DNA of 64,000 nt from Bradyrhizobium sp. B097 (GTDB lineage Bacteria > Pseudomonadota > Alphaproteobacteria > Rhizobiales > Xanthobacteraceae), in assembly GCF_038957035.1 (NCBI RefSeq), contig NZ_CP152412.1, positions 4,894,501 through 4,958,500 of the forward strand. The letters are read 5' to 3'. A program made the position numbers and the translations under genes. Positions 28,411-35,774 of this stretch are shown here, piece after piece. The notes under the pieces are model-generated. The model saw only the letters and a program-made list of their open reading frames with translations, searched no databases and had not been told where the DNA came from. Numbering within the stretch: position 1 is the first letter of the stretch; the number at the start of each line of letters is the position of its first letter.

Positions 28411-28514
28411 TTGGAGCATCAGTTCTGATTGCATCAGCTCCGATGCTCCAGTTTTTTGTCTGGACGCGTTTTCTTCACGCGAACCGGCGTCCACTTCGCT
28501 CGAAAACACTTTAG
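28411..28514. repeat. Composite intergenic repeat, copy A
   Basis: Two modules. First, a hairpin with arms GGAGCATC (28413-28420) and GATGCTCC (28442-28449), followed by TTTTTT. Second, a 52-bp core at 28463-28514 (beginning GACGCGTTTTCTTCACGCG) that matches copy B at 44097-44148 in 48 of 52 positions. The end of the core contains the stop codon (28511-28513) of the leftward DUF5666 gene. The hairpin with T-run may terminate the M23 peptidase transcript. Confidence 0.8.
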
Positions 28515-29752
28515 CGACGGCCGCCACCGGGCGGCCCGCCGCCACCGAATCCGCCGCCGGGCCCGAATGGGCCCCCGCCGCCGGGGCCGAAGGGTCCGCC
28601 GGGCGAGCCGAAGCCGCCCGGACCGGGGCCGGCCGTTCCGCCATTCAGCGGATCGGGCGCAGGACCGCCGCCACCGGGCGGCCCGCCACCGGGCGCACCA
28701 GACGGCCCGCCAGGGCTGCCACCTGGGCCGCTGCCGCCGGGGCCGCCAGCTGGCGCACCGCGCCCGCCCGGTCCGGATCCATGCCCGGGCCCAGAGCCGC
28801 CTCCGCCGGAGCCGCGGCCCGGTGTGCCGGGGCTCCGCACCGACGAGCCCGGGAATCTCGTGACCGATTGCACCGACTCGACGCGCAGCTCGCGTGTCCC
28901 CGACAGCTGCGCGTTGACCACCACGCGCGTATCGGCGGCCGGTGAAAAGCGCGAGTGGTCGCGCGCGACGAAGCCGGAGCCGAGCTGCAGGTCGTTGCCG
29001 ACCCGCCGCACATAGGCCTCGATCAACAGCCGCTTGGCGCCGGCGAGATCGGAGAAGTCATCGGCGCGGCTGCGCGAGACCTGCATCACGCCCTGCGCAA
29101 CATGGCCTTCGGCCTGCACGCGTTGACCGACCAAAGCTGCATCGACGCCGGTCAGCTTGAGCTCGCCGATCCGGAACGCTCCGTCGTGGTCGCGCTCGAG
29201 CGGTCCTGCGACGCGCATCGCAGCGTCATGGCGCTCCTGCACCAGGCTTGCGACGACGACGCCATCGGTGCGGCGCAGGCCGAACACGGCGACATGCGCG
29301 CCGACCTTCAGCCAGCTCTCGCGGCCGCTCCAGGCGACCTTCTGACCGAGCACCATCAGCTCGCCCGATTTCACCTGCTCGACCGGCCCGGTCACTTCGC
29401 TCGCCACGTCGATGCGTTTGGTCGACAGCGTGCCGCCGGCATCGCGCTCTGCCACCACGCGCGCGAGCTGGCCGATCCGCAGCGCTTTGGCGCTCGCCGC
29501 CTCGCCGTCGATCCGGACCGGCACGTCGGCCGCATAGGCGACGCGCTCGCCATTGACGTAGATCGAGCCGAACCGCTGGATCACACCGACAATGCCGGTG
29601 CCACCGATGCCCTGGTCGGAGCCGGTGATCCCGGTGCCGCCGATACCCTGATCGTTGCCGCGCTTCTTGACCTGCGCGCCGGCGAGCGAGGTTCCACCGA
29701 GCCAGAAACCGATCAGCAGCGCGCGGCGGGACATGACCGGCGGGCTTTTCAT
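28511..29752 (-). CDS. Secreted DUF5666 protein with Gly/Pro-rich C terminus
   Basis: The N terminus has a signal-like segment (SRRALLIGFWLGGTSLAGA), possibly with a twin-arginine-type start, then a doubled DQGIGGTGI sequence and a series of DUF5666 beta-barrel repeats (VIQRFGSIYVNGERV, GPVEQVKSGELMVLGQKV, RVAGPLERDHDG). The last ~110 residues are almost only Gly, Pro and Ser, probably disordered. 413 residues. Its ATG overlaps the stop of the upstream DUF6502 gene (29749-29752), so the pair is translationally coupled. Its stop codon lies inside an intergenic repeat. DUF5666 proteins have no established function; export is inferred. Confidence 0.75.
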   Translation of the reverse strand: MKSPPVMSRRALLIGFWLGGTSLAGAQVKKRGNDQGIGGTGITGSDQGIGGTGIVGVIQRFGSIYVNGERVAYAADVPVRIDGEAASAKALRIGQLARVVAERDAGGTLSTKRIDVASEVTGPVEQVKSGELMVLGQKVAWSGRESWLKVGAHVAVFGLRRTDGVVVASLVQERHDAAMRVAGPLERDHDGAFRIGELKLTGVDAALVGQRVQAEGHVAQGVMQVSRSRADDFSDLAGAKRLLIEAYVRRVGNDLQLGSGFVARDHSRFSPAADTRVVVNAQLSGTRELRVESVQSVTRFPGSSVRSPGTPGRGSGGGGSGPGHGSGPGGRGAPAGGPGGSGPGGSPGGPSGAPGGGPPGGGGPAPDPLNGGTAGPGPGGFGSPGGPFGPGGGGPFGPGGGFGGGGPPGGGRR

Positions 29753-30624
29753 GCCGCACCGCCTTCGTCGGCATCTTCATCGACCGGACCGTCGGGGCCC
29801 TCGCGATAGATGTAGATGCCGAAATTCCAGCGGTAGTCGCCGCCCTTGTCCTTGGCCAAGGCGCGGTTGGCCTCGCGGTTGGCGACCTTCAGCGCCTCCA
29901 TCGCGAGCTCGCGCGAGCGCCCCTCGAGCCGTTTTGCCAGCTTGGCCGACAGCCCGTCGTAATGTACCGCGCGTTCGAGGAAGCGCGGCGTCGCCGACGA
30001 CACGTTGAGTTCGGCAGCCGCGACATGGTCGTGCAAATTGCGGCCGAGATAGTGCCATTTGCGATCGTCGTCGCCATGCGGGACGAAGGCCTCCTCGACC
30101 AGCATGATCTCGTCGCGATCATTGATGGTGACGAGCTTGCGGTCGAGCCATTCGTCGAGCACCGCGCGCGGCCGCACATCCTTGGTGATCGATTCGACCA
30201 GCGTCTCGAACGACGGTGCGCCGCCATCGGCGGTGCGCGGCAACGGCAGGGGATCGCCCTTGGCGTCGGTGAATTCCGGCGCGGCCAGCCAGCGCGCGAT
30301 GATCGCGCTGGTGCGCGACAGTGTTGCCGGCACCGCATTGACCGGCGCGCCTGCGCCGCGCAGCCGCGCGACCTCCTTGCGGTGGATGCCGGTCAAGAGG
30401 CTGACGCGGCTGTCGGTCTGCTCCTTACCCTCGAGCGCGAAGTCGTGCTCGGCGACGTTGACATAGAGCTCGCGCAGCAGCTGGGTCAGCGCCGGAAATG
30501 TCATGCCGCCGCGGACGCAAAGCCGCACCAGCGGGCGCAGCATCCGCGCCAGCGGCGCGTGCAGCTTCGCGGCGGCGATCGGCGCAGACGATCCCGGCTT
30601 CGACTTCGGGGGCTTGGCATTCAT
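29749..30624 (-). CDS. DUF6502 family protein (helix-turn-helix-like)
   Basis: The family is recognisable from LARMLRPLVRLCVRGGMTFPAL, QLLRELYVNVAEHDF and the helix-turn-helix-like EQTDSRVSLLTGIHRKEV. It then has an alpha-helical C-terminal part with FGIYIYREG near the end. No enzyme motif. 291 residues from ATG 30624 (a TTG at 30630 is also in frame). It forms a two-gene unit with the DUF5666 gene and is divergent from the small putative regulator at 30800. A 17-bp palindrome ends ~25 bp before its start, so it is probably regulated by, or itself the binder of, that site. DNA binding is inference. Confidence 0.75.
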   Translation of the reverse strand: MNAKPPKSKPGSSAPIAAAKLHAPLARMLRPLVRLCVRGGMTFPALTQLLRELYVNVAEHDFALEGKEQTDSRVSLLTGIHRKEVARLRGAGAPVNAVPATLSRTSAIIARWLAAPEFTDAKGDPLPLPRTADGGAPSFETLVESITKDVRPRAVLDEWLDRKLVTINDRDEIMLVEEAFVPHGDDDRKWHYLGRNLHDHVAAAELNVSSATPRFLERAVHYDGLSAKLAKRLEGRSRELAMEALKVANREANRALAKDKGGDYRWNFGIYIYREGPDGPVDEDADEGGAA

Positions 30625-30648
30625 GCCCAACTTTTAGCCGTCCGCTCC

Positions 30649-30711
30649 GTGGGACACAATCCCACCGCTTTGCCCCCCCCGCTTGACGTGTGACATTTTC
30701 CCACTTATGGG
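30649..30711 (+). promoter_or_regulatory. Regulatory module 1: two 17-bp palindromes 39 bp apart plus promoter
   Basis: The first palindrome is GTGGGACACAATCCCAC at 30649-30665, the second GTGTGACATTTTCCCAC at 30688-30704 (13 of 17 identical). The second fills the spacer of a promoter: -35 TTGACG at 30683-30688, 17-bp spacer, -10 TATGGG at 30706-30711, pointing right to the gene at 30800. The first sits just upstream of the leftward DUF6502 start. The same module recurs at 31339-31401 with identical spacing. Confidence 0.7.
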
Positions 30712-30799
30712 AAATAAAATCACATCCGGACACGACGCGCGCTTGCCGGCGTGAGTGTCAGGGTGCGGAGGCACTGCCGCCATCGCCACGGACCGCTCC

Positions 30800-31234
30800 A
30801 TGACGCCTGCCCGATTCGACCTTGCGATCGCGGAAGCCTGCCGGATCGCCCAGGTTCCCTACGAGGAGTTCGTGTCGACGGTGATGGCAGGCGGCTATCC
30901 CTGCCTGCCGGGCGTGGCGCCCGGCTCGCCGCGCCGCTTCGGCGAAACCGATCTGCTGGCGCTGTACATCTATGGCCGCCTGCTCGCCTTCGGCTTTAGC
31001 GGCCTGCGCGCCGGCGAATATGCCAGCCGCGCGCATGCCGGCCTCACCGCCGAGCCGCGGGCGAACTCGATCTCGATCGCGCTGACATCGGATGGCGGCA
31101 AGCGTGTCGTCATCGAGCAGGATCTGCAGCGGCCCGCAGCCGCGATGCTGCCCGAGCGGATCCATTTCGACATCCCCGCGATCCGCCGCCAGTTGCAGCC
31201 CTCTGCGGCCGGCAGCACGGCCGAGCCGGCCTGA
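30800..31234 (+). CDS. Small putative DNA-binding protein, unknown family
   Basis: 144 residues, cytoplasmic, with no named family recognised. The middle part, FGETDLLALYIYGRLLAFGFSGLRAGEYASRA, has the spacing of a MerR-like winged helix-turn-helix (DL..L...L...G.S...A...A), preceded by AEACRIAQVPYEEFVST. The rest (ISIALTSDGGKRVVIEQDL) may be a small ligand or dimer domain. ATG at 30800; a GTG at 30755 is in frame, and the best Shine-Dalgarno (GGAGG near 30766) is too far from the ATG, so the start is uncertain. It is preceded by regulatory module 1 and lies upstream of module 2, making it the best candidate for the regulator that binds both. That role is inference. Confidence 0.6.
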   Translation: MTPARFDLAIAEACRIAQVPYEEFVSTVMAGGYPCLPGVAPGSPRRFGETDLLALYIYGRLLAFGFSGLRAGEYASRAHAGLTAEPRANSISIALTSDGGKRVVIEQDLQRPAAAMLPERIHFDIPAIRRQLQPSAAGSTAEPA

Positions 31235-31338
31235 CATCTCGCTAGCACTCCCGACCTGCTCGCCTCGCGCCGTCACGGCGCGATCGCGCCGCCATGCGCT
31301 CCGATGCCTCCTGCCAAAAAAATTGTCCACCGCCACAC

Positions 31339-31401
31339 GTGGGACATAATCCCACATTTTAGTCCGACGCCATTGACGTGTGAAATTTTCCCACGTATCC
31401 A
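31339..31401 (+). promoter_or_regulatory. Regulatory module 2: paired palindromes plus promoter of the polysaccharide operon
   Basis: GTGGGACATAATCCCAC (31339-31355) and GTGTGAAATTTTCCCAC (31378-31394), each one base different from its counterpart in module 1, with the same 39-bp centre spacing. The promoter is TTGACG (31373-31378), 17 bp, TATCCA (31396-31401), so the second palindrome occupies the spacer. The start point would be near 31408, giving a ~22-nt leader to the ATG at 31430. Confidence 0.7.
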
Positions 31402-31429
31402 GAATCCATTCAGCAGGGAATCCGACGCA

Positions 31430-31660
31430 ATGTCTCTTCGTTCGGCCCACGAACCCGGTTCGTCTTACGAACTCGGTTCGTCTTGCGAACCCGGTCGGTT
31501 CGCCGCCACCACACTCCGTTTCACGCCGAAGGCGCCCTTCTGCTTCACGCCGCAGGCGCCTTGCGGCCCGATCGAGCCGGTGTTTCCGGCGCTGCTGCGC
31601 TCGCTGGTGTTCGCCGCCGCGCTGGCGCTGCCGTTCGTCGTCGCCCTGTTCGTCGCATGA
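31430..31660 (+). CDS. Small membrane protein at the head of the polysaccharide operon
   Basis: 76 residues, unknown family. The N-terminal half has an 18-bp tandem repeat (31451-31496) encoding EPGSSY/ELGSSC/EPG, followed by two FTP(K/Q)APxC units. The C-terminal end is one hydrophobic helix (SLVFAAALALPFVVALFVA) reaching the stop codon. AGGGA lies ten bases before the ATG. The stop overlaps the next gene's ATG (ATGA, 31657-31660), which supports it as a real, translationally coupled gene. It may be a tail-anchored helper of the export machinery; this is inference. Confidence 0.6.
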   Translation: MSLRSAHEPGSSYELGSSCEPGRFAATTLRFTPKAPFCFTPQAPCGPIEPVFPALLRSLVFAAALALPFVVALFVA

Positions 31661-33618
31661 TCCGGATCGAGCCGCCCATGATTGGTCTCAACGCGCAGGC
31701 CCGGCGTCCGTCGGTGCTCCACATCTTCAAGGTCTACTACCCCGACCTGTTCGGCGGCACGCTGACCGTGATCCGCGACATCTGCGCCTCCCTGAGGGAC
31801 ACGTTCGACGCCGCCGTGTTGGTCTGCTCGCGCTCCGGAGGCGAGCGGCAGATCGTGGTCAATGACGTTGCCGTCGAGCGCGTGCACTCGTTCGGCGACG
31901 TGCTGTCGCTGCCGGCGGCGCCGACCTATCCGTGGCGGCTGTGGCGCCGCATCGCCGAGCACGATCTGCTGGCGCTGCACGCGCCCTTCCCGCTCGCCGA
32001 CCTCGTGTTCGCATTCGGGCTCGGCCGCGCGCGTCCGCTGGTGGTGCACTGGCACGCCGACATCGTCTCGCACGCGGCCTTGCGCTTTCTGGTCGAGCCG
32101 ATGATGCGGCGAACCCTGCGGCGTGCCGCCGCGATCATCGTCTCCGATCCGGTGCTGATCGAAACCACGCCGCTGCTTCAGGAGTTTTCCGACAAGTGCC
32201 ACGCCGTTCCGTTCGGCGTCGATGTCGAGAAATATGACCGGCCCGCCGCGCAACCCGACGACGTCAACGCCCGCGGCCGCCTCGTCCTCGCCTGCGGCCG
32301 GCTGGTGCCCTACAAGGGCTTTGACGTGCTGGTGCGCGCCGCCCACGCCCGCAATTTCGAGGTCTGGATCGTCGGCGAGGGCCGCGAGCGCGGCAATCTC
32401 GAGCAGCTGATCCGCGACTATGGCCTGCAGGACCGCGTCCGCCTGCTCGGCTCGGTGTCCGAGAGCGAACGCGTCAAGCTGATGCGCATCGCCGATGTCT
32501 TCGTGATGCCGTCGGTGACCAATGCCGAGACCTTCGGGCTGGCCCAGCTCGAGGCGATGGCGGCGAGCCGTCCGATCGTCAACACCGCGCTCGACACCGG
32601 CGTTCCGCATGTCGCCCGCGACGGCCTCGAGGCCATCACCGTGCCGCCCGGCGATCCCACCGCGCTCGCCGATGCCATCGAGACGCTGATCAACGATCCC
32701 GAGCGGCGCCGCCGCATGGGGCAGGCCGCGCGGCATCGCGCGATGACGAAATACTCGACATCAGCCTTCAAGGAGGGAGTGGAGACGGTGTACCGCAAGG
32801 TCGTGACCGAAGAGGCCGCCCCAAAGGACGCAGGGTCACTAGCCTCAGCCCCGCGCCCCCGAACGGCCGGTCTCGTCGGCGCGATCCAGATCGCGGCAGC
32901 GCTGGCCTGGTCAGACGTCCGCCATCGCTACGTCCGCTCCCTCCTTGGACCCTTCTGGATGTCGATCCAGATGGCGATCATGGTGGCCGTGCTTGGCTCG
33001 GTCATCGGCCATCTCTCCAACGCCAGCGCGGTGGCGCGGCTGCCGATGCTGGCGGCGAGCCTCACCGCCTGGACCTTCCTCAACAGCGTCGTGCTCGACG
33101 CCACCACCGCGCTGCAGGGCTCGGCCAGCCTGATCAAGGATCGCGCGCTGCCACCGGTGATCTTCCTGCTGCAGTGTACTTTCCGCCAGGCGCTCTTCGC
33201 GGCGCACAACGCGGTCGTGCCGCTGATCCTGTGGCTCGTGCTGACGCCGCGGGATGTGGGCGGCGCCATCGCCGCGCTGCCCGGCCTCGTCCTGTTCGCC
33301 ATCTGCACGCTCGGCGCCAGCCTCGTGCTCGGTGCGTTGGCGACGCGCTACCGTGACATAAAGCCGATCATCGAGTCCTCGCTGACGCTGGCCTTCCTAG
33401 CGTCGCCGATCATCTGGACGCCTGAGATGATCGATCGCGGCTCGACGGTGATGCGGCTCAATCCGCTGACGCATCTGTTCGCGGTCTGGCGCGACCCGCT
33501 GGCATCGGGCCATGTCGCGATGCCGAGCGTGATCTACGTGCTGGCCTGCCTTGCTGCGCTCGCGGTCGCGGCGACCGTGACGGTCGCTCAATTGCGCAAA
33601 GCGGCATTCTGGATCTAG
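31657..33618 (+). CDS. Glycosyltransferase (GT4-like) fused to ABC-2 polysaccharide export permease
   Basis: One uninterrupted 653-residue frame. Residues ~1-395 are a GT-B glycosyltransferase of the GT4 type: KVYYPDLFGGTLTVIRD at the N terminus, LACGRLVPYKGFDVLVRA and the E-x7-E motif in NAETFGLAQLEAMAASRP. After a short Ala/Pro linker, residues ~405-653 are a complete ABC-2 permease of the Wzm/KpsM type: WSDVRHRYVRSLLGPFW, about six membrane helices and the usual C terminus with TRYRDIKPIIE and PIIWTPEMID. Such genes are normally separate. In-frame GTG codons at 32779 and 32788 follow an AAGGAGG (32770-32776), so separate internal translation of the permease is possible. The partner ATPase follows 3 nt later. 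Confidence 0.85.
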   Translation: MIRIEPPMIGLNAQARRPSVLHIFKVYYPDLFGGTLTVIRDICASLRDTFDAAVLVCSRSGGERQIVVNDVAVERVHSFGDVLSLPAAPTYPWRLWRRIAEHDLLALHAPFPLADLVFAFGLGRARPLVVHWHADIVSHAALRFLVEPMMRRTLRRAAAIIVSDPVLIETTPLLQEFSDKCHAVPFGVDVEKYDRPAAQPDDVNARGRLVLACGRLVPYKGFDVLVRAAHARNFEVWIVGEGRERGNLEQLIRDYGLQDRVRLLGSVSESERVKLMRIADVFVMPSVTNAETFGLAQLEAMAASRPIVNTALDTGVPHVARDGLEAITVPPGDPTALADAIETLINDPERRRRMGQAARHRAMTKYSTSAFKEGVETVYRKVVTEEAAPKDAGSLASAPRPRTAGLVGAIQIAAALAWSDVRHRYVRSLLGPFWMSIQMAIMVAVLGSVIGHLSNASAVARLPMLAASLTAWTFLNSVVLDATTALQGSASLIKDRALPPVIFLLQCTFRQALFAAHNAVVPLILWLVLTPRDVGGAIAALPGLVLFAICTLGASLVLGALATRYRDIKPIIESSLTLAFLASPIIWTPEMIDRGSTVMRLNPLTHLFAVWRDPLASGHVAMPSVIYVLACLAALAVAATVTVAQLRKAAFWI

Positions 33619-33621
33619 CAC

Positions 33622-34362
33622 ATGGCAAGCATCCACCTCCGTGACGTCTGCCTCGATTATCCGCTGTACGGCGCCTACGACTTTTCCCTGAAGCGCCGCC
33701 TGCTCGGCCGCCTGTTCCGCCAGACCAGCGAGATGCGCACCATCCGCGCGGTCGACAACATCTCGATCGAGGCGAAGGCCGGCGCCCGCATCGGCCTCGC
33801 CGGGCCGAACGGCTCCGGCAAGTCAACTTTGCTGCGGCTGATCGCCGGCGTGTTTCCGGCAACCAGCGGCGAGGTCGAGATATCAGGCAATATCGTGCCG
33901 CTGCTCGGCCTCGGTGCCGGCGTCAATCTCGATTTCGTCGCCGCCGACAATATCAACCTGCTGCTGCGGATCTCCGGACGCAAGCCGACGCCGGCGATCC
34001 TGGACGAGATCTGGGCGTTCACCGAGCTGGAGGCGCGCATGCAGCGGCTGCCGCTGCGCATGTTCTCCTCGGGTATGCTGATGCGCGTGCTGTTCGCGAC
34101 CGCGACCGCGTTTCCCGCCGACATCCTGCTGCTCGACGAATGGCTCAGCGTGGTCGACGAGAATTTCTCGGCCAAGGCCGAGCAGCGGCTGCGCAAGATG
34201 GTCGAGGCAGCTGCGATCGTGATCATCGCCTCGCACGACCAGGGGCTGCTGCGCCGAACCTGCAACCGCATCATCAATCTCGACCACGGCCGCATCACCA
34301 GCACTGTTGCGCTGGATCCGCCCGTCCTGCATCACCTTGAGCTCAGAGAAATAACCGCATGA
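33622..34362 (+). CDS. Polysaccharide ABC transporter ATPase (KpsT/Wzt-like)
   Basis: Energises export of a lipid-linked polysaccharide through the fused permease. Walker A GPNGSGKST, a degenerate signature MFSSGMLMRV (FSSGM instead of LSGGQ, as usual for KpsT/Wzt), Walker B ILLLDEWLSV and an H-loop ASHD are seen. 246 residues, with no C-terminal carbohydrate-binding domain, so it is the short KpsT/TagH-like form rather than an O9a-type Wzt. It starts 3 nt after the fusion gene and overlaps the next gene by four bases. Confidence 0.93.
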   Translation: MASIHLRDVCLDYPLYGAYDFSLKRRLLGRLFRQTSEMRTIRAVDNISIEAKAGARIGLAGPNGSGKSTLLRLIAGVFPATSGEVEISGNIVPLLGLGAGVNLDFVAADNINLLLRISGRKPTPAILDEIWAFTELEARMQRLPLRMFSSGMLMRVLFATATAFPADILLLDEWLSVVDENFSAKAEQRLRKMVEAAAIVIIASHDQGLLRRTCNRIINLDHGRITSTVALDPPVLHHLELREITA

Positions 34363-35774
34363 CAAAGATCCTGGTCGTCAGCGAGGCGCTCGGCGAACCC
34401 AACCACAAGCGCGGCATCTTCCATTTCACGCGTGAATTGATCCGCTCGCTGGCCGACGACGGCCACGAGCTGACGCTGCTGGTCGAGACCACCCGCCGCT
34501 ATCGCAAGCTGCGCCAGCGCCAGCAGCGCACAAGGCTGCTGCCCGACGGCTCGCGGCTGATCGAGCTGCTCGCGCTCTATCGCTTCCTCGACGAAGCCGA
34601 CATGAATGCGCCTGTCATGCGCAGCAGCGGCGGCTTGCGCCGCACCGTCGACTGGTTCCGCGGCAAGCTCCGCGCCGCGACCTCGCTGGAATTCGCCGTC
34701 AGCTTCCTGCGCGCGCTCCATTTGCTGCCGGCCGGCGTCAGCCTGATCGAGAACCACGCCGACGGCCTCGAATACATCCCGACCGATTTGCGCCATCTCA
34801 AGCTGTTCGGCGATTTCCTGCTCGAACCCGGCTTCTACAGCTATCAGGACACCTCAGCGCTGCTGCGGCTGCCGCCGCCGCGGGTCGATGCGCGCGGCTA
34901 CGACGTCATTCTCGTCGACACGCCGACGCGGGTCGCGATCCAGCGCAAGCGCGGCGCCAAGGTGATCTGCGTCGTGCATGACCTGTTGCCGCTCACCGAT
35001 CTCAAGCTCAGCGACGTCGCAACGCGGCTGTTCCTGTCGCGCCTGTTCACCAGCCTGCAGCAGGCCGACGAGCTCGCCTTCGTCTCGCATTACAGCCTGG
35101 GCCGGTTCCGCGCCTTGCTTCCGCAGTTCGCGCATCTGCCGGCGCGGGTGGTCTATCCCCGCACCAGGTTCGATGCACCGGCGCTGCCGGCAGCCGGTGC
35201 CCCGAGCGGACGGCCGTACTTCGTCGTGATCGTCTCCGCCGAGCCGCGCAAGAACCTCGCCGCGGTCATCCGCGCCTTCCGCAAATTGCCCCAGGCCGAC
35301 CTCGTCGTGATCGGCTACACCGGCGCGCCGAGCCTGACCCGCAATGCGCCGCCCAACGTCCGCTTCTCCGGCTATGTCGAGGAGCACGAGAAGGCCGCGC
35401 TGATTGCCGATTCCCATGGCCTGATCATGCCGAGCCTCGCCGAAGGCTTCGGCGTGCCGATCATCGAGGCGCTGGCCGCGAACACGCCGGTGCTGTGCTC
35501 CGACATCGCCGTGTTCCGCGAGGTCGCGGGCGAGCTCGCCGACTATTTCGACCCGTTCTCGATTGATGCGATTAGCGCCTCGGTCACCCGGGTGCTGGCT
35601 GAGCAGGAGCAATGGCGGAACAAGATCCGCGCGCGCCGGACCGAGCTCGCCGACCGCTTCGGCCACCATACCCAGGCGCGCGACCTGCTGTCCCATCGGG
35701 TCGTCGCGGAAGCCGCGGCCGCCGTGCCAGCGCCGCCTGCCGCGATCGCCGCATTCAACGGCGCCACCGTGTAG
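34359..35774 (+). CDS. Glycosyltransferase, GT4-like
   Basis: GT-B fold transferase adding a sugar to the growing polysaccharide. It starts MTKILVVSEALGEPNHKRG; the donor-binding half has VIVSAEPRKNLAAVIRAF and the E-x7-E motif in PSLAEGFGVPIIEALAANTP, followed by SDIAVFREVAG. 471 residues, somewhat long because of an insertion around 75-170. Donor and acceptor cannot be read from the sequence. ATGA overlap with the ATPase gene. Cytoplasmic or membrane-associated. Confidence 0.88.
   Translation: MTKILVVSEALGEPNHKRGIFHFTRELIRSLADDGHELTLLVETTRRYRKLRQRQQRTRLLPDGSRLIELLALYRFLDEADMNAPVMRSSGGLRRTVDWFRGKLRAATSLEFAVSFLRALHLLPAGVSLIENHADGLEYIPTDLRHLKLFGDFLLEPGFYSYQDTSALLRLPPPRVDARGYDVILVDTPTRVAIQRKRGAKVICVVHDLLPLTDLKLSDVATRLFLSRLFTSLQQADELAFVSHYSLGRFRALLPQFAHLPARVVYPRTRFDAPALPAAGAPSGRPYFVVIVSAEPRKNLAAVIRAFRKLPQADLVVIGYTGAPSLTRNAPPNVRFSGYVEEHEKAALIADSHGLIMPSLAEGFGVPIIEALAANTPVLCSDIAVFREVAGELADYFDPFSIDAISASVTRVLAEQEQWRNKIRARRTELADRFGHHTQARDLLSHRVVAEAAAAVPAPPAAIAAFNGATV

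Follow-up and report, generated by a model that had tools for sequence, protein, structure and literature searches.

A probable DUF6502 operator within predicted divergent promoters of a Bradyrhizobium polysaccharide-export locus

A stretch of 64,000 nucleotides (nt) from Bradyrhizobium sp. B097 (contig NZ_CP152412.1, positions 4,894,501 to 4,958,500; hereafter the window, with positions counted from its first letter) contains two intergenic modules, each with a pair of 17-base-pair (bp) palindromes. In both of them the second palindrome is found in the spacer of a TTGACG-N17-TAT promoter, an arrangement that is here called the promoter-operator and that is real and conserved. The palindromes are very likely operators bound by the protein encoded next to them, which belongs to the domain family DUF6502 (PF20112), as suggested by the recurrence of similar palindromes upstream of distant DUF6502 genes. 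On the same comparative grounds, DUF6502 is very probably a DNA-binding transcription factor, from a family previously undescribed as such.

Paired Palindromes and Predicted Promoters

Module A (30649-30711) is located between the leftward DUF6502-DUF5666 gene pair and a rightward gene for a protein of 144 amino acids (aa; 30800-31234), while module B (31339-31401) is located ahead of a 79-aa gene and a glycan operon. The two modules start 690 bp apart and are 79% identical over a 61-nt alignment. Upon re-reading of the sequence, all four palindromes that an earlier note had placed in these regions were found, along with the distance of 39 bp between paired palindromes in modules A and B of B097 and the position of the second palindrome of each module between TTGACG and a TAT-starting -10 box, with a spacer of 17. 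Palindrome 1, given like the others without strand, reads GTGGGACACAATCCCAC in module A (30649-30665) and GTGGGACATAATCCCAC in module B (31339-31355), with a single-base difference; palindrome 2 reads GTGTGACATTTTCCCAC (30688-30704) and GTGTGAAATTTTCCCAC (31378-31394), respectively, again with one base of difference. The predicted promoter A is directed rightward on the plus strand (30683-30711: TTGACG at 30683-30688, 17 nt, TATGGG at 30706-30711), as is the predicted promoter B before the polysaccharide operon (31373-31401: TTGACG at 31373-31378, 17 nt, TATCCA at 31396-31401), which is kept in relatives. TATGGG occupies the -10 position in 11/70 distinct genus modules. An inverted repeat, TTTCCCA-CTTA-TGGGAAA at 30697-30714, also overlaps the -10 of promoter A.

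The earlier note missed the role of palindrome 1, within which the predicted -35 of the DUF6502 promoter lies. Indeed, on the minus strand its centre TTGTGT (30659-30654) is followed by a 17-nt spacer and by the -10 TAAAAG (30636-30631), the ATG at 30624 lying 6 nt further on, so that this predicted promoter spans 30631-30659 and the DUF6502 message is predicted to be near-leaderless. The genus consensus on the DUF6502 side is TTGTNT, 17 nt, a TANAAT-like hexamer and an ATG after about 6 nt. With no start-codon filter, a hexamer 17 nt from the centre of palindrome 1 agrees with TATAAT at 4 or 5 of its 6 positions in 55/58 distinct sequences. In a filtered set (n=55) that admitted only sequences with an ATG 4-9 nt past the -10, and whose 53/55 hence leans to tidy cases, the mean match to TATAAT is 4.55 as opposed to 1.2-2.5 when the hexamer is slid by 1-3 nt, and the ATG distance is 6 nt in 51. 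In Methylobacterium and other genera the -10 hexamer is displaced or matches less well. The 5-bp centre of palindrome 1 is thus probably part of the DUF6502 -35, which would explain its conservation, as a dimeric binder should not need it. Overall, the two palindromes reach into predicted core promoter elements in both directions, as in divergent autorepressors.

Operator and Recognition Helix across Pseudomonadota

DUF6502 was found in 15/385 genomes drawn from the class (B097 included) and in 21/398 genomes drawn from the phylum, corresponding to 16 of the 212 sampled genera. The same palindrome is present upstream of many distant DUF6502 genes, as exemplified by GTGGGAAAAAATCCCAC (L050 and L058), ATGGGAAAATTTCCCAT (L078) and GTGGGATAGCATCCCAT (L085), with three copies each in L052 and L055. 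The site is therefore not limited to this genus, as comparable palindromes are found ahead of many DUF6502 genes from other Pseudomonadota.

For a count over the phylum, the 250 nt preceding each DUF6502 match were scanned for TGGGA-N5-TCCCA, allowing one mismatch. The site was present at 122/135 loci, in 56/68 clusters at the 90% level, 22/32 at 70% and 12/21 at 50%, while control windows from the same loci yielded 0.31% of 3254, 0.31% of 1286, 0/331 and 0/167, respectively. Omitted from the count are L029, whose contig ends inside the gene, L053, which equals L010, and L064 with L065, two matches in one gene; some strains enter it twice, through two tools, and clustering removes these duplicates. 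In L082 and L083 the match begins inside the gene, so that the true upstream DNA covered is shorter than 250 nt.

The presence of the site goes along with the type of the putative recognition helix. At the 70% level, it is found in 22/25 clusters with the helix G-x-H-R-[KR] and in 0/7 clusters whose helix has the histidine replaced by T, N, P or Q (p 3.6e-5; Fisher tests and E-values throughout ignore relatedness). Among the seven non-histidine clusters, L066 and L067 (with L068; helix TGLTRK) carry TGGGA-N6-TCCCA, and L081 and L082 (with L083) a TGTG..CACA palindrome, both recognized post hoc and by eye, while no convincing palindrome was seen upstream of L079, L080 and L086. One genome, G816, holds four DUF6502 matches (L066, L085, L086 and L087) with differing helices and differing upstream palindromes. 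Judged by comparison only, the operator thus appears to be a cognate one that covaries with the recognition helix, and this phylum-wide pattern is stronger evidence for DUF6502 as the binder than the co-occurrence within the genus described below.

Conservation and Variation in Bradyrhizobium

PF20112 was found in 80 of 195 Bradyrhizobium genomes, a sample drawn from a larger group. The promoter-operator, allowing up to one mismatch, is present in 78/80 genomes with DUF6502 and in 0/115 without it (p 5e-53), and the reversed control gave 0. In 20 of the genomes devoid of DUF6502 no operon genes were found at E <= 1e-100, in a search that had no positive control. The two promoter-negative genomes with DUF6502, G065 and G072, have the operon deleted and DUF6502 split into two frames, possibly by assembly error, and still keep palindrome 1. 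In G172 and G197 most of the operon is lost, DUF6502 is kept and CTGACG replaces TTGACG. DUF5666 was not detected in any of these four genomes, whose operon-deletion loci are L172, L173, L180 and L181. Outside the genus by name, a record titled Frankia sp. RB7 (L118) contains a DUF6502 gene that shares 79% identity with its Bradyrhizobium counterpart, pointing to mislabelling or contamination.

Around DUF6502, 18 genus loci (L031-L048) were read, and all 18 carry the palindrome and the promoter-operator, as a single module in 17 and as two only in L031. The usual gene order is DUF5666-DUF6502, module, small protein, a fusion of glycosyltransferase family 4 with Wzm (GT4-Wzm), Wzt, GT4 and Wzy_C. 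DUF5666 was detected at 16/18 loci (not in L033 and L037), and the GT4-Wzm gene is near-complete at 16/18, partial in L041 and present only as remnants in L032. The duplicated module with which the earlier note opens is not the rule, since in 17 of the 18 relatives a single module separates DUF6502 from the operon or from what is left of it. Two adjacent modules occur in 17/78 promoter-bearing genus genomes, and in all eleven two-module loci that were read (the window, L031, L174-L179 and L183-L185) they flank the 30800 gene. Given the one-module state of 17/18 relatives and the 30800 gene between all paired modules read, the duplication looks like a later, derived event in one subclade, and thus a subclade detail.

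The spacing of the palindromes is similarly variable. Among 70 distinct modules it is 39 in 46, 38-42 in 58 and 26-29 in 12; exact 39-bp pairing therefore stands for B097 and was rejected as a conserved or defining trait, as 24/70 modules deviate from it. The values fall into two groups, 26-29 and 38-42, and leave 30-37 empty. A difference of one helical turn would account for this, which remains a hint because most short-spacing modules belong to one clade. The middle of the linker is poorly conserved. The survey of 70 modules took TGAC and the invariant bases of the two sites as given, so that both the conservation of the sites and the occurrence of TTGACG in 68/70 are partly built in. A pattern-free repeat was anchored on the DUF6502 start alone and covered 71 genus loci, operon-deleted ones included, with 58 distinct upstream sequences. 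Palindrome 1 is exact in 58/58 of them, and the promoter-operator has up to one mismatch in 53, two in 2, three in 2 and five in 1. The earlier note would have given up its proposal if relatives that keep these genes lacked the module; this was looked for, and conservation was found instead.

Rarity in the B097 Genome

The same note named wide occurrence of the motif in the genome as a reason to abandon the idea, and the strong motif proved not to be widespread in the 9.25 megabases (Mb) of B097. In the window, the palindrome motif with up to 3 mismatches has 7 matches, against a shuffled mean of 1.0, and 0/100 shuffles reach 7. With zero mismatches, GTGNGANNNNNTCCCAC occurs in the whole genome at the four module sites and once more at 4588903 (L171), a site that was dropped as the script scan gave no promoter-operator there. 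With up to one mismatch there are 37 forward and 36 reverse matches, compared with 46 and 43 for a reversed-pattern control. These looser matches, some of which (e.g., GTGGGTTCGAATCCCAC) resemble tRNA T-arms, were rejected as background, because the reversed pattern yields as many. The promoter-operator, searched as TTGACGYGNNANNWTTTCCCAC, occurs in two copies, modules A and B, and no third copy was found in the 9.25 Mb; all other matches have 3 mismatches (5 versus 6 in the control).

The DUF6502 Protein and a Proposed Mechanism

The DUF6502 gene is on the minus strand at 29749-30624, the ATG at 30624 being the conserved start, while the tool-called open reading frame is 29749-30630 with a TTG start. 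Its product matches PF20112 with 101.3 bits (E 5.5e-29; gathering cut-off 27). A putative helix-turn-helix (HTH) is placed at about residues 73-94 (TGIHRKEV) and is followed by a winged-helix-like region at about 98-189. In the predicted model, residues 43-97 and about 98-189 align with HTH/winged-helix DNA-binding domains, with no Foldseek match at E <= 0.001. A search of PDB sequences with the DUF6502 profile gave no relative at E <= 1, and profiles for TetR, MarR, IclR and DeoR gave no match; above the cut-offs, DUF6502 is the only Pfam family and there is none from NCBIfam. PADLOC (DUF6502 and 30800 products) and PHROGs (these two and DUF5666) returned 0 matches. In the open-licence papers searched, no mention of DUF6502 or PF20112 and no paper on the palindrome motif were found, and the Bradyrhizobium Wzm/Wzt literature, by title, has nothing on the control of this operon.

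According to the mechanism that we propose, DUF6502, probably as a dimer, would bind GTGGGA-N5-TCCCAC and slightly degenerate versions of it. Palindrome 1 would cover the -35 of its own leftward promoter, palindrome 2 would occupy the spacer of the rightward promoter, and bound DUF6502 would block RNA polymerase at both divergent promoters. As a bound dimer would cover both promoters, the outcome would be autorepression of DUF6502 and repression of the operon (small protein, GT4-Wzm fusion, Wzt, GT4 and Wzy_C). In the B097 subclade, the second module and the MerR-like gene at 30800-31234 would give two parallel promoters under one repressor. Binding, dimerisation, repression and promoter use are what we infer from the sequences. 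A local switch tied to a surface-polysaccharide operon, with its operator inside the promoter and with no paper found on it, had been put forward in the earlier note and agrees with the present analysis, autoregulation being probable.

The Polysaccharide Operon and Neighbouring Genes

All genes of the operon are on the plus strand. The first encodes the 79-aa small protein (31421-31660), which has no family in Pfam or NCBIfam. It is followed by the GT4 fused to an ABC-2 (Wzm-like) permease (31657-33618), the Wzt-like ABC ATPase (33622-34362) and a second GT4 (Glycos_transf_1; 34359-35774), all from Pfam and NCBIfam scans, and by an O-antigen ligase-like protein (Wzy_C, PF04932; 35635-37068) from the Pfam scan. 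The ABC2_membrane and ABC_tran domains of a Wzm/Wzt ABC exporter are both present according to Pfam, and NCBIfam models for galactan Wzm and Wzt match the operon proteins with scores below their cut-offs. The GT4/ABC-2 permease fusion is a single frame, kept in 16/18 genus loci, and such a fusion is also found divergent from DUF6502 in Methylocapsa sp. S129 (L122). The 144-aa gene between the modules (30800-31234, plus strand) has no Pfam or NCBIfam family, a MerR-like model and an accessory distribution.

Downstream of DUF6502, the DUF5666 gene (28511-29752, minus strand; E 1.4e-07) has counterparts elsewhere. DUF5666 was found in 30/34 downstream genes of distant DUF6502 loci, a favourable figure as the 34 proteins were hand-picked after inspection from 52 downstream frames listed for 74 distant loci. 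The DUF5666 proteins 3' of DUF6502 (window 28511-29752; L122-L165) carry RD-GIGGTG stretches, and their N-termini (SRRALL, RRRFLGLL) are presumably Tat-like signals. DUF5666 is perhaps an exported partner or sensor. In the literature, the domain occurs in a table row of PMC12455991.

Operator Copies Away from the DUF6502 Locus

Within the 195 genus genomes, only two promoter-operators with up to one mismatch lie off the locus, in G191 and G195. Both precede the same large membrane-protein gene, which encodes about 530 aa and is 55% identical between them. This gene, given without strand (L168:3048-4813, L170:1365-3025 and L187), was found in 3/195 genomes (E <= 1e-60), all three with DUF6502, and 0 families were returned by a Pfam scan of its product. 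In the third genome, G025, it is preceded by a TTGACGCGGG..CCCACATAT promoter with two mismatches, and in 3/3 genomes no other TGGGA-N5-TCCCA palindrome was found within 500 nt before it.

In other genera (G545, G232 and G720), exact off-locus sites precede repeat-rich or secreted-looking frames. In particular, G545 has an exact operator before an RTX-like repeat frame (L214:2937; the G232 counterpart is L212:2202), and in G232 an exact operator, with a TTGACG promoter-operator about 35 bp upstream, precedes a repeat-rich frame about 2 kilobases from DUF6502. From the DUF6502 genomes of other genera 18 were chosen, mostly of the GTGGGA type. They hold 23 exact sites, of which 15 are at DUF6502 and 8 are not, compared with 13 matches to the reversed pattern; for 18 genomes without DUF6502 the corresponding counts were 2 and 8. 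As a group, off-locus sites are not enriched in these 18 + 18 genomes, and a wider regulon is not claimed.

Alternative Readings

Several points weigh against binding by DUF6502. The co-occurrence of DUF6502 and promoter-operator within the genus is partly linkage, and the histidine-type clusters L061, L062 and L076 have no close site upstream. An unlinked regulator might also bind the palindromes, DUF6502 being merely one of its targets, as the site precedes DUF6502 itself at every genus locus and binding by DUF6502 rests on the comparison of sequences. However, the promoter-operator is absent from 115/115 sampled genus genomes without DUF6502, and the presence of the site tracks the recognition helix of DUF6502 itself, which renders such a regulator improbable. 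Slightly less credit still is given to the 144-aa MerR-like protein as the binder that autoregulates module A and drives module B. Its gene lies between the modules in 11/11 two-module loci, and the Foldseek list for its model is headed by the MerR-type CvkR (7xn2; E 7.5e-3, probability 1.00) along with CueR, none at E <= 0.001. On the other hand, the Pfam MerR profile matched 0/31 of its homologues at E <= 1. MerR proteins act within promoter spacers, but the spacer here is an ordinary 17, unlike the long MerR kind. Moreover, the gene is found in 4/18 relatives and missing from 14/18 that keep module and DUF6502; in L032, L033 and L035 it has no separate module and comes after the small protein, inside the operon or what is left of it (L035 having it in two pieces); and 13/13 of its homologues with an organism label, among the matches listed, are from Bradyrhizobium, whereas the site follows DUF6502 across the phylum. 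Thus, of the two proteins that the earlier note would have tested for binding, the DUF6502 product has the better support, while the 30800 product, for all its MerR-like model, is absent from 14/18 relatives.

Within binding by DUF6502 there is a sub-case, which we hold unlikely, in which the protein works as an activator of the operon or as a dual switch. Palindrome 1, being upstream of the rightward promoter, would be a suitable place for an activator, and the direction of control is one that we infer. Yet palindrome 2 is in the -35/-10 spacer and palindrome 1 on the predicted leftward -35, one site in L055 abuts a likely start codon, and the three trans copies show the promoter-embedded site alone in the 500 nt ahead of the gene. 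Finally, two near-identical copies with starts 690 bp apart might suggest that the palindromes are not operators and instead form an RNA stem-loop or belong to a repetitive or mobile element. This can hardly be credited, given that no further promoter-operator copies were found in the 9.25 Mb, that the position inside predicted core promoters is conserved and that the linker differs among modules in both length and sequence.

Significance and Comparison with Known Systems

If DUF6502 is indeed the binder, a domain of unknown function gains a testable function and a DNA target, and a dedicated switch can be named for a Bradyrhizobium polysaccharide exporter. As the operator is short, symmetric and tied to the recognition helix, binding, specificity and regulon are directly testable. 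Natural experiments on the growth and fading of a local switch are offered by the trans copies, by the subclade with two modules and by those loci in which loss of the operon goes with decay of the regulator. A broader picture may be offered tentatively, with somewhat less than even confidence: DUF6502 could be a sporadic, phylum-wide autorepressor family with a readable protein-DNA code, histidine corresponding to TGGGA-N5-TCCCA and other residues to other half-sites or spacers. Its targets would be products that are displayed or secreted, namely polysaccharide in Bradyrhizobium and different surface or secreted proteins in other taxa, and DUF5666, which looks exported, might sense the envelope and feed back on DUF6502.

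The literature on Bradyrhizobium exopolysaccharide repressors includes, by title, work on Ros/MucR, RosR and PhaR. The rhizobial exopolysaccharide regulators Ros/MucR/RosR share with DUF6502, in its proposed role, the control of surface polysaccharide in alphaproteobacteria; however, they are zinc-finger proteins, while DUF6502 matches no zinc-finger family in Pfam and is encoded beside its proposed target. MraZ has a TGGGA-type half-site, but its sites are direct TGGGN repeats, whereas the DUF6502 half-sites are inverted. For the 30800 product only, CvkR (7xn2) appears alike in the fold of the predicted model. In layout the locus resembles the divergent autorepressor modules of TetR, MarR and IclR proteins, from which DUF6502 differs in matching no named regulator family and, apparently, in its two DNA-binding-like parts (43-97 and about 98-189). 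The architecture is ordinary, that of a divergent autorepressor, while the family is one previously undescribed and its operator recurs across the phylum.
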